A model generated the notes under the pieces. The model ran no database searches. It was given only the letters and a program-made list of their open reading frames with translations, and was not told the DNA's origin. A program made the position numbers and the translations under genes. From Ignavibacteriota bacterium (lineage in GTDB: Bacteria; Bacteroidota; Ignavibacteria; Tepidaquicellales; Tepidaquicellaceae), in contig JAPLFJ010000034.1 of the NCBI GenBank assembly GCA_026390735.1, forward strand, positions 124,001 through 188,000: 64,000 nt of DNA, written 5' to 3'. Positions 53,713 to 58,027 of this stretch are shown one piece after another; within the stretch, counting starts at the first letter, position 1; every line of letters starts with the position of its first letter.

Positions 53713-56700
53713 ATGGTAAAAACAATTAACAGCTTCATGTTTATTTTCTTAGTTGTGTTTGCATTTAGCAATGTCTTTGCGAATAACATCACTGTTTCTG
53801 GTGTAAGTTTATCGGGAAACAACACATCAGGAACACCACATTTTATAATGGTGAACTTCGGTCTAAGCTGGGATAATTCCTGGAAGACTATTTCGCGTTC
53901 AGATTATGCTTCCGCTGCCGGTGCAACTTCATCCAATTCAATCGGGTATGTTTCTGATGTAGGTGCGGCTTCTGTTTGTACTTTACCCATTGGTGCTACC
54001 TCCACTTACACTTCAGATGCCGGTGCAACTTCGCCGTATTACGTATCCAGCGCAGGTGTTGTGTCGGGAATTGGTACTTATACTTCTTCATCAAATGCAA
54101 TGAGCTATACTGATAATCCAATTATATATGTTGACAACACCGCAGGTTTAGTTCCTGGTATGATTGTTAATGTAACATCTGGCACAGGTGAATTTGCTCC
54201 TGGTACTTATGTACTGAACGTGCAAAGTGGTTATTTTGAAGTTTCTATGAATCCGATAATACCTCTTTCAGAAGCAACTGTAACAGGCACAATATCAGAT
54301 TATATTTCTTCACCCGTCAGTACCTCATCAAAATCTAATATTTCTGTAATCAGTGTAGCAGGTCTTGTGGTTGGTATGCCCGTTACAGTAACTTCGGGTT
54401 CGGGTGAATTTCCTCCGGGTACTTATGTTTCTTACATAAATACTTATCAAAACACTTTTGATGTTTCAGCAGACCCCGTTTCTGGTTTATACGACGCAGT
54501 AATAACTGCTTATAATACTATAATGACAGTTCCAAGCACAACACGGCTTATTGCAGGGATGCATTTAACCGTTACTGCAGGGACGGGAGTTTTTGCTGAA
54601 GGCACTATTGTTACAGGAGTTTTTGATGCAACACATTTCATAATCTCATCGGTTCCCGTCACTCCGTTTTCAGGAACTGAGAATGTAATCACAGGTGTAC
54701 AAAAATACGTTTCTTCTCCCGGTGCAACATCATCCGGAAATTATATATATGTTTCAAATAATGCTTTCCTGGAAGCTGGTATGCCTGTCTCTGTTACTTC
54801 GGGTACAGGTTCTTTTCCGGCAGGAACAATCGTCACTTCTGTTGATGGTACAAATTATTTTTATGTATCTGCTGAACCAACAATACCTTTGTCAAACGGT
54901 GCGGTCATTACGGCATTCGGAAACACGATTACGGTATCCTCAAATGAATGGCTCGAAGTGGATATGCCTGTTTCTGTAACTTCCGGTGCGGGTGCTTTTC
55001 CTCCGGGTACAGTAGTTACAGAAGTAATGGGTAATGGTACACAATTTAAAGTCTCTGCAGCTCCAACTTCTCCTTTAACAGGTGGTGCTACGGTTGTTAC
55101 AGCTTATGGTAAAACTATATGTGTTTCAAGTATGACAGGTCTAAAAGTCGGTATGCCAGTTTCTGTTACTTCAGGTATAGGAGCATTTCCTGCGGGCACT
55201 AAAGTAATTTATATTTACTGGGACAACCATCATTTTATAGTTGATTCTTTGCCGTCAACTCCTTTAACAGGTGGCGAAACAGTCGTTACAGGAAGTGATG
55301 ACCAGATAACAGTTGGCAGTACAACAGGGTTGAATGTTGGAATGCGTGTAGCTGTTACATCGGGTACGGGTTCATTCGTTCCGGGAACAGTTGTTACAGA
55401 AATTATCGATGGTACGCATTTTAAAATCTCTGATACACCTCTCACTCCTTTAGCCGGCGGTACTTCTGTAGTAACAGGTTATGACGGTTCAGCAATTACT
55501 GTAAGCAGCACCTCAGGCCTGAGACTTGGAATGCATTTAAGTGTAACATCAGGTACGGGTATATTTGCTCCTGGCACTGTTGTGACAGGAGTAACAGATG
55601 CAACACACTTTACCGTTTCATCCGCTCCAACAACTGCTTTGTCAAACAACGCAGTTGTTACGGGTACAGATATAAAGAACTGGGATGCCGCTTGGGTGTT
55701 TGCGAAATTTAAGGTAAGAACAAATTATGTATCATCAGCAGGCGCAACAGGTGCAACAGGACAGACAACAATTACGGTTTCCAGCACAACTGGGCTGAGA
55801 GTAGGTATGCCTGTTAAAGTAACTTCCGGAACAGGTGTATTAACCGACGGAACTGTCGTTACTGAGATTACAGATGCTACACATTTCAAAGTATCTGCCG
55901 CACCGACAACTGCTTTGTCAGGCGGTGCAAGTGTTGTCACAGGTTATACAATATGGGAACACGCAACATTAAATCAGACAGGTCACACCGCACCATCAGG
56001 AAGCACCATTACACCCGCATCCGATGGGATGGGTGCATTTATTTACCGCAGTGCCGATGGCTCAGGAACAAACACCTGGACAGGTGCACAACTCCAATGG
56101 AACTACGGAACAAATAATGTTCCTGATGCAGCATTGATTGACATTCAGGTTTTTGCTATTGAAATGGTCTATGTCCCTCAGGGTACATATTATTTAGGCT
56201 CGGGAGGTTCCGAAAATGGAAGTTTTACTGATGGTTCCTGGGTTTCCGGGAATACTATACCGTTTCAGGTTTCCTCAGAAAGTGAAATCACTGTTTCTCA
56301 AAGTTCAGGGAATCTATGGTGCAATACTTCTAACATGTACGGCGGCAATTACGTTAGTAATATTCCTGCTGCATTTCCAAAAGGTTACAATGCATTTTAC
56401 TGCATGAAAACAGAAATCATGCAGCAGCAATACGTGGATTTCCTGAATACACTCACTTACAAACAACAATACACGCGTACTACAGATGCAAATGTTGGCA
56501 TGTATATTTATCCGAATTCCTCCGCAGGTTCTTATGTATTTAGTGCAAACAGTTACAGTAACATACTATATAGAAATAAAATAAAGATAAGCACTTCGGG
56601 TGTAGTTACTACAACTCCGGCAGTTTATACTTCTGATTACCCTTACGTTGCTTGCAACTGGATAAGTTATGGAGACCTTTCTGCATATCTCGACTGGAGC

Positions 56701-57288
56701 GGTCTGCGCCCTTTAACCGAACTTGAATTTGAAAAATCCTGCCGCGGAAATTTGCCACCAGTCCGTAACGAATATGCCTGGGGTAGTATTAATATTAAGC
56801 AAAGCACTGGTTTCACAAACTCCGGACTGATAAATGAAGTGAGTGTAAACGGTGGGAACTGCAATTACAGCCCAAACTGGACTTACTATGATGGACCAAT
56901 AAGAGTTGGTGCATTCGCAACATCAAACTCTACACGCGAATCTTCAGGTGCCACATTTTACGGAATACTGGAAATGAGCGGAAACAATTTTGAACGGGTT
57001 ATTAATGTAGGTTTTTCAGAAGGAACATGTTTTAACGGTACTCACGGTAACGGCACATTAAATTCAATTGGGAATTCTGATTGTAATACCTGGCCGGGTA
57101 CATCGAACAATTGGCAGAATAACCTGGGTTCCGGAATGAGGGGCGGAACATTTTATCCTTATAATCGTCAGAGTCCTCCGTCTGATTTAGTTAATCTTTG
57201 GCAGGTATCCGACAGATATTTTGCTTGCTGGACGAGCAGCCAGCATTGGATGGATTATGGCGGCCGTGGGGTCAGAACTGCAAACTAA
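53713..57288 (+). CDS. Secreted FGE/SUMF1-fold protein with nine in-frame beta-repeats inserted in its N-terminal domain
   Basis: 1191 residues with a signal peptide (MVKTINSFMFIFLVVFAFSN, cleavage near FAN). A conserved N-terminal module begins ITVSGVSLSG and FGLSWDNSWKT (residues 50-59) but resumes only at NWDAAWVFAKFKV (656-668). It is interrupted again and resumes at WEHATL (748). Nine repeats of about 60 residues fill the gaps, eight in the first and one in the second, each like ITVSSTTGLRVGMPV plus VTSGTG, GTVVT and VSAAPTTAL. The C-terminal FGE-sulfatase fold spans about 815-1191 (EMVYVPQGTYYLG, LRPLTELEFEKSCRG, EMSGNN, GGRGVRTAN). The paired catalytic cysteines of true FGE are not seen, so a structural or binding role is likelier. 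No T9SS domain is present. Confidence 0.85.
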   Translation: MVKTINSFMFIFLVVFAFSNVFANNITVSGVSLSGNNTSGTPHFIMVNFGLSWDNSWKTISRSDYASAAGATSSNSIGYVSDVGAASVCTLPIGATSTYTSDAGATSPYYVSSAGVVSGIGTYTSSSNAMSYTDNPIIYVDNTAGLVPGMIVNVTSGTGEFAPGTYVLNVQSGYFEVSMNPIIPLSEATVTGTISDYISSPVSTSSKSNISVISVAGLVVGMPVTVTSGSGEFPPGTYVSYINTYQNTFDVSADPVSGLYDAVITAYNTIMTVPSTTRLIAGMHLTVTAGTGVFAEGTIVTGVFDATHFIISSVPVTPFSGTENVITGVQKYVSSPGATSSGNYIYVSNNAFLEAGMPVSVTSGTGSFPAGTIVTSVDGTNYFYVSAEPTIPLSNGAVITAFGNTITVSSNEWLEVDMPVSVTSGAGAFPPGTVVTEVMGNGTQFKVSAAPTSPLTGGATVVTAYGKTICVSSMTGLKVGMPVSVTSGIGAFPAGTKVIYIYWDNHHFIVDSLPSTPLTGGETVVTGSDDQITVGSTTGLNVGMRVAVTSGTGSFVPGTVVTEIIDGTHFKISDTPLTPLAGGTSVVTGYDGSAITVSSTSGLRLGMHLSVTSGTGIFAPGTVVTGVTDATHFTVSSAPTTALSNNAVVTGTDIKNWDAAWVFAKFKVRTNYVSSAGATGATGQTTITVSSTTGLRVGMPVKVTSGTGVLTDGTVVTEITDATHFKVSAAPTTALSGGASVVTGYTIWEHATLNQTGHTAPSGSTITPASDGMGAFIYRSADGSGTNTWTGAQLQWNYGTNNVPDAALIDIQVFAIEMVYVPQGTYYLGSGGSENGSFTDGSWVSGNTIPFQVSSESEITVSQSSGNLWCNTSNMYGGNYVSNIPAAFPKGYNAFYCMKTEIMQQQYVDFLNTLTYKQQYTRTTDANVGMYIYPNSSAGSYVFSANSYSNILYRNKIKISTSGVVTTTPAVYTSDYPYVACNWISYGDLSAYLDWSGLRPLTELEFEKSCRGNLPPVRNEYAWGSINIKQSTGFTNSGLINEVSVNGGNCNYSPNWTYYDGPIRVGAFATSNSTRESSGATFYGILEMSGNNFERVINVGFSEGTCFNGTHGNGTLNSIGNSDCNTWPGTSNNWQNNLGSGMRGGTFYPYNRQSPPSDLVNLWQVSDRYFACWTSSQHWMDYGGRGVRTAN

Positions 57289-57331: not shown

Positions 57332-58027
57332 ATGAATAAAATAATATTATACATAATCTTTATCCTGGCTCTTCCTGCAATGCTTTTTGCTCAGTACAAC
57401 GGAGGAAACGGTGGAAGTGGTACTGTCGGTACAGTAAACAATTCTCCACTTCCAGTGAATCTTTCTTCTTTTACATCGAACGTCAATGGAAGAAATATTA
57501 CACTTAATTGGGTTACAGCATCAGAAGTAAATAATGCAGGATTCGAAATCCAGAGGATAAAAAGTTCGGATTCAAAAACCCAGAATTATGAAAAGGCTGG
57601 ATTCATTCAGGGTAAAGGAACTGTAAACACTTCGACAAATTATTCATATACTGATAAGAAACTTGACTGCGGCAAATATCAGTACAGACTGAAACAGATT
57701 GACATTAACGGTAACTTTGATTTCTACAACCTAAATGGCGAAGTAGAAATTGGATTGCCAACAAAATATGACATCAGCCAGAATTATCCGAATCCTTTTA
57801 ATCCAACAACTAAAATTGACTTCCAGCTTCCGATAGACGGGAAAGTGTCGCTGAAGATTTATGATATAACAGGAAGAGAGATGGCAACGCTTATGAACAA
57901 TGAGTTTAAGAAAGCGGATTATTATACGGTGATGTTTAACGGAAGTAATCTTTCGAGCGGTATATATTTCTATAGGATAATTGCAGACAAGTTTGTGGTG
58001 ACAAAGAAAATGGTTCTTTTGAAATAA
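57332..58027 (+). CDS. Small secreted protein made almost only of a T9SS sorting module
   Basis: 231 residues from the ATG at 57332 with AAGGAA upstream; the longer frame from a TTG overlaps the previous gene. The signal peptide ends MLFAQ, followed by a glycine-rich linker (YNGGNGGSGTVGTVNN). The same SPLPVNLSSFT fibronectin-like module and NYPNPFNPTTKIDF sorting domain that end the proteins at 11179 and 13695 then follow. There is no cargo domain. It lies 43 bp after the FGE-fold gene, which lacks a sorting domain, and is probably co-transcribed with it. Confidence 0.88.
   Translation: MNKIILYIIFILALPAMLFAQYNGGNGGSGTVGTVNNSPLPVNLSSFTSNVNGRNITLNWVTASEVNNAGFEIQRIKSSDSKTQNYEKAGFIQGKGTVNTSTNYSYTDKKLDCGKYQYRLKQIDINGNFDFYNLNGEVEIGLPTKYDISQNYPNPFNPTTKIDFQLPIDGKVSLKIYDITGREMATLMNNEFKKADYYTVMFNGSNLSSGIYFYRIIADKFVVTKKMVLLK

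Follow-up and report, generated by a model that had tools for sequence, protein, structure and literature searches.

A phage-shared, predicted β-barrel module inserted in frame at three sites of a secreted FGE-fold protein family

Gene layout and host protein

The analysed stretch of 64,000 nucleotides, hereafter the window, belongs to an Ignavibacteria-type genome and contains an open reading frame of 1191 amino acids at 53713-57288 (+). The features of this gene, and the gene that follows it, are listed below with the basis of each assignment where applicable.

53713-57288, +, whole gene, secreted FGE-fold family protein with inserts
53713-53781, +, signal peptide-like N-terminus, residues 1-23 (read from sequence)
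53782-53904, +, first segment of the host N-terminal domain, ending SWDNSWKTISRSD (18-member alignment)
53905-54069, +, site 1, four leader-only fragments with no core, at residues 65, 79, 99 and 110 (shuffle test)
54115-54291, +, site 1, unit 1 core (profile)
54301-54513, +, site 1, unit 2, with degenerate leader (profile)
54514-54699, +, site 1, unit 3 core (profile)
54706-54918, +, site 1, unit 4, with leader YVSSPGATSS (profile)
54919-55107, +, site 1, unit 5 core (profile)
55108-55296, +, site 1, unit 6 core (profile)
55297-55482, +, site 1, unit 7 core (profile)
55486-55668, +, site 1, unit 8 core (profile)
55678-55725, +, middle segment of the host N-terminal domain, NWDAAWVFAKFKVRTN, separating sites 1 and 2 (18-member alignment)
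55726-55947, +, site 2, unit 9, complete 74-residue module with leader, the unit modelled with AlphaFold2 (profile, model)
55948-56163, +, last segment of the host N-terminal domain, TIWEHATL... (18-member alignment)
56389-56832, +, part of the C-terminal FGE-fold domain matched by Pfam FGE-sulfatase, residues 893-1040
57138-57285, +, C-terminal end of hypervariable type (RGG...VSDR...GGRGVRTAN)
57332-58027, +, downstream partner gene with a Por_Secre_tail (T9SS) domain

The host protein matches FGE-sulfatase (PF03781) at residues 893-1040 with 30.4 bits, against a curated cut-off of 23.3, and its paralogs match as well. This places sites 1 and 2 in a distinct N-terminal domain that precedes the FGE domain, and not within the FGE-fold domain itself, which corrects the first-pass annotation on this point. 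The positions given there for the three conserved motifs were correct: SWDNSWKT is at residue 52, NWDAAWVFAKFKV at 656, and WEHATL at 748.

Catalytic formylglycine-generating enzymes have two active-site cysteines in a C-terminal motif. No cysteine pair was found on reading the window protein between RGG and VSDR and, given this missing pair, its FGE fold is likely a binding rather than a catalytic one.

Relatives of the N-terminal part of the Por_Secre_tail gene product (56-65%) adjoin other members of the FGE-fold family (loci L052, 2627-3016, and L032, 4-291). The arrangement suggests that the FGE-fold gene and its downstream neighbour form a two-gene unit.

Extent of the repeat unit

The profile finds nine units in the window protein, eight at site 1 and one at site 2, with domain E-values of 8e-24 to 2e-30. 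These are the eight repeats between the first two motifs, and the ninth between the last two, that had been recognised previously. The core of each unit spans about 61 amino acids, and the full module with its leader about 74, rather than the 60 or so residues attributed to the repeat before.

The difference lies in the stretch Y-V-S-x-A-G-A-T-S-S, formerly described as a short spacer that starts each insertion. The stretch is real, since residues 61-145 of the window protein hold four copies of it, a count reached by none of 5000 shuffles. It is not a separate spacer, however, but the opening portion of the module. At each of the three insertion sites of the FGE family, and also in phages, units are preceded by leaders of the form Y-[VT]-S-x-A-G-A-T-S-S; tandem copies have mostly lost the leader. 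All seven leaders at the starts of FGE-family insertions are preceded by N or D, whichever the site; this hints at a common donor form, with the qualification that orthologous sites are not independent.

The module is covered by no Pfam or NCBIfam family. One profile region of phrog_6005 and phrog_6002, which are families of virion structural proteins, is homologous to the units: phrog_6005 is matched by 18 of 19 units (best E-value of 1.3e-8), and by the whole protein with an E-value of 4.8e-36. These profiles, however, are 1512 and 1183 positions long, and the module is not described there as a separate family.

Filled and empty sites in the FGE-fold family

Further full members of the family were found in the source genome (G000), which has two, on contigs C50 and C43, and in genome G009, which has about a dozen. 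The G009 paralogs lie on C40, C348, C230, C300, C387, C98 and other contigs, several of them at contig ends.

Thirteen of the eighteen aligned members, including a paralog in the window gene's own genome, are empty at every site and have only a few residues there, e.g., SWRTSSDPNNWDAAWVFVKYRVGTSGWQHTWL. Given this reading of the empty members, the segments corresponding to SWDNSWKT, NWDAAWVFAKFKV and WEHATL stand a few residues apart when no insert is present, as the first-pass annotation had stated for FGE-fold proteins.

The filled sites are distributed among five genes. Across the window gene, G009:C528 and G009:C271, site 1 holds eight, two and no units, respectively, and site 2 holds one, one and three. 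A third site, which lies inside the FGE domain between NExIAxNYS and GN, holds two units in G000:C43 and in its orthologue G004:C309. None of the 29 genomes from the bacterial family has a unit outside these five genes, and the eleven copies in G000 are confined to two genes of a single family. Among 395 genomes drawn from across the phylum, the remaining ones also lack the unit at an E-value of 1e-5. A scan of genome contigs with a narrow alignment yielded four loci, a number to be read as a lower bound because an exact STTGL[VRQ]VGM was required: one bacterial case with a leader, which is G009:C528, and three weaker repeats from the Verrucomicrobia group.

History and selection

The host tree was built from the part of the protein after site 2, leaving the inserts out. 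The window gene groups with C271 and C528 (support of 90/85), and a group supported at 99/99 encloses these three together with the empty G009:C98. Parsimony requires one change at site 2, two at site 1 and one at site 3, and the outgroup is empty at all of them; hence, the sites were gained. The earlier proposal of in-frame insertion at two loops followed by multiplication at one of them is supported by the empty relatives, the host tree and the third site in paralogs.

Recent copying, which had been offered to explain the likeness of repeat 9 to units 7 and 8, is refuted. DNA identity among the window gene's units is only 49-67%. The closest relative of unit 9 is the site-2 unit of C528 (72% amino acid identity), with units 7 and 8 following (68% and 69%). 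In the orthologues C43 and C309, units match by position (70% and 74%) as opposed to 51% across positions, and the dN/dS of this module pair is 0.16, the host segments having values of 0.08 and 0.11. The low identity among copies, the position-wise orthology and the dN/dS together indicate that the inserts are old, ordered and under purifying selection. Trees of the modules themselves are based on 62 columns and are weak. Judging from the sequences, insertion at the three loop sites is old, was gained on an empty background and has been kept by purifying selection.

The module in phages

Searching viral contigs with module alignments returned 26 and 25 loci. The same module, leader included, is present in tailed-phage contigs at about 50-65% identity, although a tblastn search of INPHARED phages with four units returned nothing at 1e-5. 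The whole module is found in a phage protein of 210-221 amino acids whose gene adjoins a major-tail-protein-like gene and lies near a tail-fibre gene. Other carriers are a two-copy protein of 248 amino acids, a protein of 581 amino acids belonging to phrog_10467, and a tail sheath (L147; phrog_10581 and phrog_23). Presence of the module is patchy among the tail sheath, the tail-adjacent protein, the phrog_10467 protein and others.

For the sheath, whose family belongs to large phages, 80 relatives of L147 were fetched (L201-L280), 68 of which are distinct. The module is missing from 37 of these and present in the other 31, at three positions: in 22 it follows W-x-x-Q-[IL]-G, one of these proteins having two units there, in 7 it precedes that W, and in 2 it occupies a third place. 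A tree of the first 200 residues of the sheath, which is only partly resolved and may be affected by recombination between the halves of the protein, requires 11 or more switches between the filled and the empty state. The sheath module of L201 is 69% identical to that of an unrelated protein, L106, and 67% identical to the nearest sheath module.

For the family of 210-221 amino acids, no empty-site relative was found. Its two distant relatives, L184 and L185, keep the cysteine-rich N-terminal part but end differently, with C-terminal parts that appear by eye to be fibronectin-like or thrombospondin-like. In L205 and L206, the usual VTIQSVWPDL right after the sheath module is replaced by FAGG...TPGASYLPNIYENVPLTGGTGTGAR, which may be a second insertion or a shuffled segment.

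Predicted fold of the module

Unit 9 was modelled with AlphaFold2 from an alignment with 36 relatives taken from the window, L132 and the viral loci. The model, leader included, has a pLDDT of 97.1 and a pTM of 0.84, and in it leader and core are predicted to be one domain. When the model was searched with Foldseek against the PDB, phage virion proteins ranked first, with no match below an E-value of 1e-3; against predicted viral proteins, the top match is a virion structural protein from a Synechococcus phage (E-value of 8e-4). No PDB sequence matches the module profile, even at an E-value of 10.

VIA-align 2 matched the model to a phage tail tube (residues 105-177, Z = 8.5), a chain of phage Bridgette (Z = 8.1), residues 287-368 of the LKA1 tailspike (Z = 7.4), residues 225-343 of the P22 coat protein (Z = 6.1), and region 181-257 of ubiquitin E1 (Z of about 6-7). 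In the LKA1 and P22 alignments (Z of 6.1-7.4), 66-69 residues are aligned over positions 1-74, with an rmsd of 2.1. Matches with Z of 6-8.5 can reflect a common arrangement, and are no proof of descent. No Ig domain is prominent among the matches listed; the model resembles six-stranded barrels (LKA1, P22, E1 enzyme).

Residues 284-370 of LKA1 have been described as a six-stranded β-barrel insertion domain, and its likeness to residues 222-345 of the P22 coat protein was remarked upon (PMC5701251). For P22 and CUS-3, the literature speaks of insertion domains that fold autonomously (PMC11243222). The ranges matched by VIA-align 2 in LKA1 and P22 coincide with these published domains. As predicted for the module presented here, the P22/CUS-3 I-domain and the LKA1 insertion domain are six-stranded β-barrels inserted in a loop; they are single-copy, however, whereas the module occurs in up to eight tandem copies. 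By analogy with these domains, the two ends of the module are probably close together. The AlphaFold2 model of the host domain with inserts (365 amino acids, shallow alignment) reached a pLDDT of 55, and the description of the insertion sites as loops consequently rests on the alignment.

Discussion

The comparisons show that the module was inserted in frame at three places of the FGE-fold family, on an ancestrally empty background, and was then multiplied in tandem. They also show that the same module occurs patchily in unrelated virion proteins of tailed phages. Given its occurrence both in a bacterial protein and in unrelated phage virion proteins, the module looks like an undescribed portable domain common to the two. 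The explanation we favour, with a probability of roughly three in four, is that of an undescribed, phage-shared, loop-inserting β-barrel module of about 74 residues, which may form a tandem stalk or binding array in the window protein.

The module would have entered through recombination, out of a pool that bacteria and phages have in common, either from phages to bacteria or in the reverse direction. Since the ends of the barrel are presumably close together, loops would tolerate the module and the host fold would be left intact. At the cell surface, the lectin-like FGE domain may be held out by the tandem copies, which would act as a stalk or as an array for low-affinity binding. The FGE/C-type lectin fold serves as a ligand-binding scaffold, e.g., in the variable proteins of diversity-generating retroelements (DGRs; PMC5006420). 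The proposal draws on this use of the fold, together with the missing cysteine pair.

A stronger version of the favoured explanation, about which we are doubtful, is that of a domain mobile at the protein level: the barrel would move in frame between unrelated loops of phage and bacterial proteins by a precise insertion route, be gained and lost within one family, and be amplified where a stalk is useful. A partial parallel is given by the Ig-like domains of tailed phages, which are described (Fraser et al. 2006, via PMC10385173) as scattered over unrelated virion proteins, sometimes directly inserted, and patchy in distribution. Going by that account, they are, like the module, small self-folding β domains present in some relatives and absent from others. 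The module differs from them in its predicted fold, which resembles a short barrel, in having a leader of its own, and in occurring also in tandem in loops of a bacterial secreted protein.

Alternatively, the inserts could be an old fixed architecture, vertically inherited and altered by ordinary repeat expansion, with no movement between sites or from phages. The age of the units and the purifying selection on them agree with this, as does the fact that site 2 is common to two genera. Of the units at both positions across homologues that the first-pass annotation associated with such an architecture, one homologue, from another genus, does have both sites filled; a second has only site 2, and most have neither. 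The sites, however, are three different ones, all unfilled in the outgroup and in the majority of members. The same leader and core are also found in unrelated phage proteins with module-free relatives, which calls for at least some transfer of the module. We thus regard purely vertical inheritance as unlikely.

A DNA element that still copies itself into genes in frame, along the lines of Rickettsia palindromic elements or PARCELs, is strongly disfavoured, and we consider it very improbable. The unit is discrete and sharp-ended at three sites in five genes, and the N or D before all seven FGE-family leaders, regardless of site, would suit such an element. PARCELs, whose repeats have 25 residues (PMC2996958), and Rickettsia palindromic elements are, like the module, coding repeats within genes, in tandem and apparently exchanged between genomes. 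They are, however, palindromic in DNA, whereas neither dyad symmetry nor spread to unrelated genes of one genome was found for the module. Inverted pairs in the window gene are distant or weak, with one 14-nt hairpin inside unit 8 and no palindromic or terminal inverted repeats at unit ends. Together with the divergence of the copies, the order kept by the C43/C309 units and the lack of copies in other genes (29 family genomes, and the 395 sampled phylum genomes at 1e-5), this led us to reject the mobile DNA element, and with it the analogy to Rickettsia palindromic elements drawn previously.

Domain insertion is usually regarded as rare and ancient. The module adds an undescribed domain family, with no Pfam or NCBIfam model, to those of phage sheaths and other virion proteins, and links bacterial secreted proteins to the domain pool of phage virions. 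Its dozens of filled and empty pairs, at defined places in two host families unrelated to each other, make it possible to measure directly the rules by which loops receive inserts (where this occurs, how exact it is and how it is kept), and the sheath family offers a ready data set for the purpose.

The hypervariable end

The end of the window gene (57138-57285), along with those of paralogs L049, L059, L061, L050 and L052, is hypervariable between conserved flanks (RGG..W...VSDR...GGRGVRTAP), with an excess of C/T at the third base in several paralogs, and has the look of a DGR variable region. That the inserts belong to a DGR system diversifying the FGE-fold protein is scarcely credible: the hypervariable C-terminus and its third-base C/T excess in most paralogs (e.g., 0.72-0.88 versus 0.56-0.60) fit such a system, but the inserts are far from the variable end, the window gene's own third-base bias is slight (0.62 versus 0.58), and in the incomplete assemblies of G000 and G009 the reverse transcriptases are of group II intron type, with no template repeat found. 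A search of the source genome and seven related ones for a DGR reverse transcriptase or template repeat, with RVT_1 and a template-like DNA probe, returned only group II intron reverse transcriptases, one Abi-like reverse transcriptase (G008) and the gene family itself. On present evidence, the inserts are not part of a DGR. The reverse transcriptase of G008:C158 (L063, around 1063, minus strand) has the look of neither a DGR nor a group II intron enzyme (RGIPVGPIGSVPLSEA, RYVDDF), and is possibly of the abortive-infection type.
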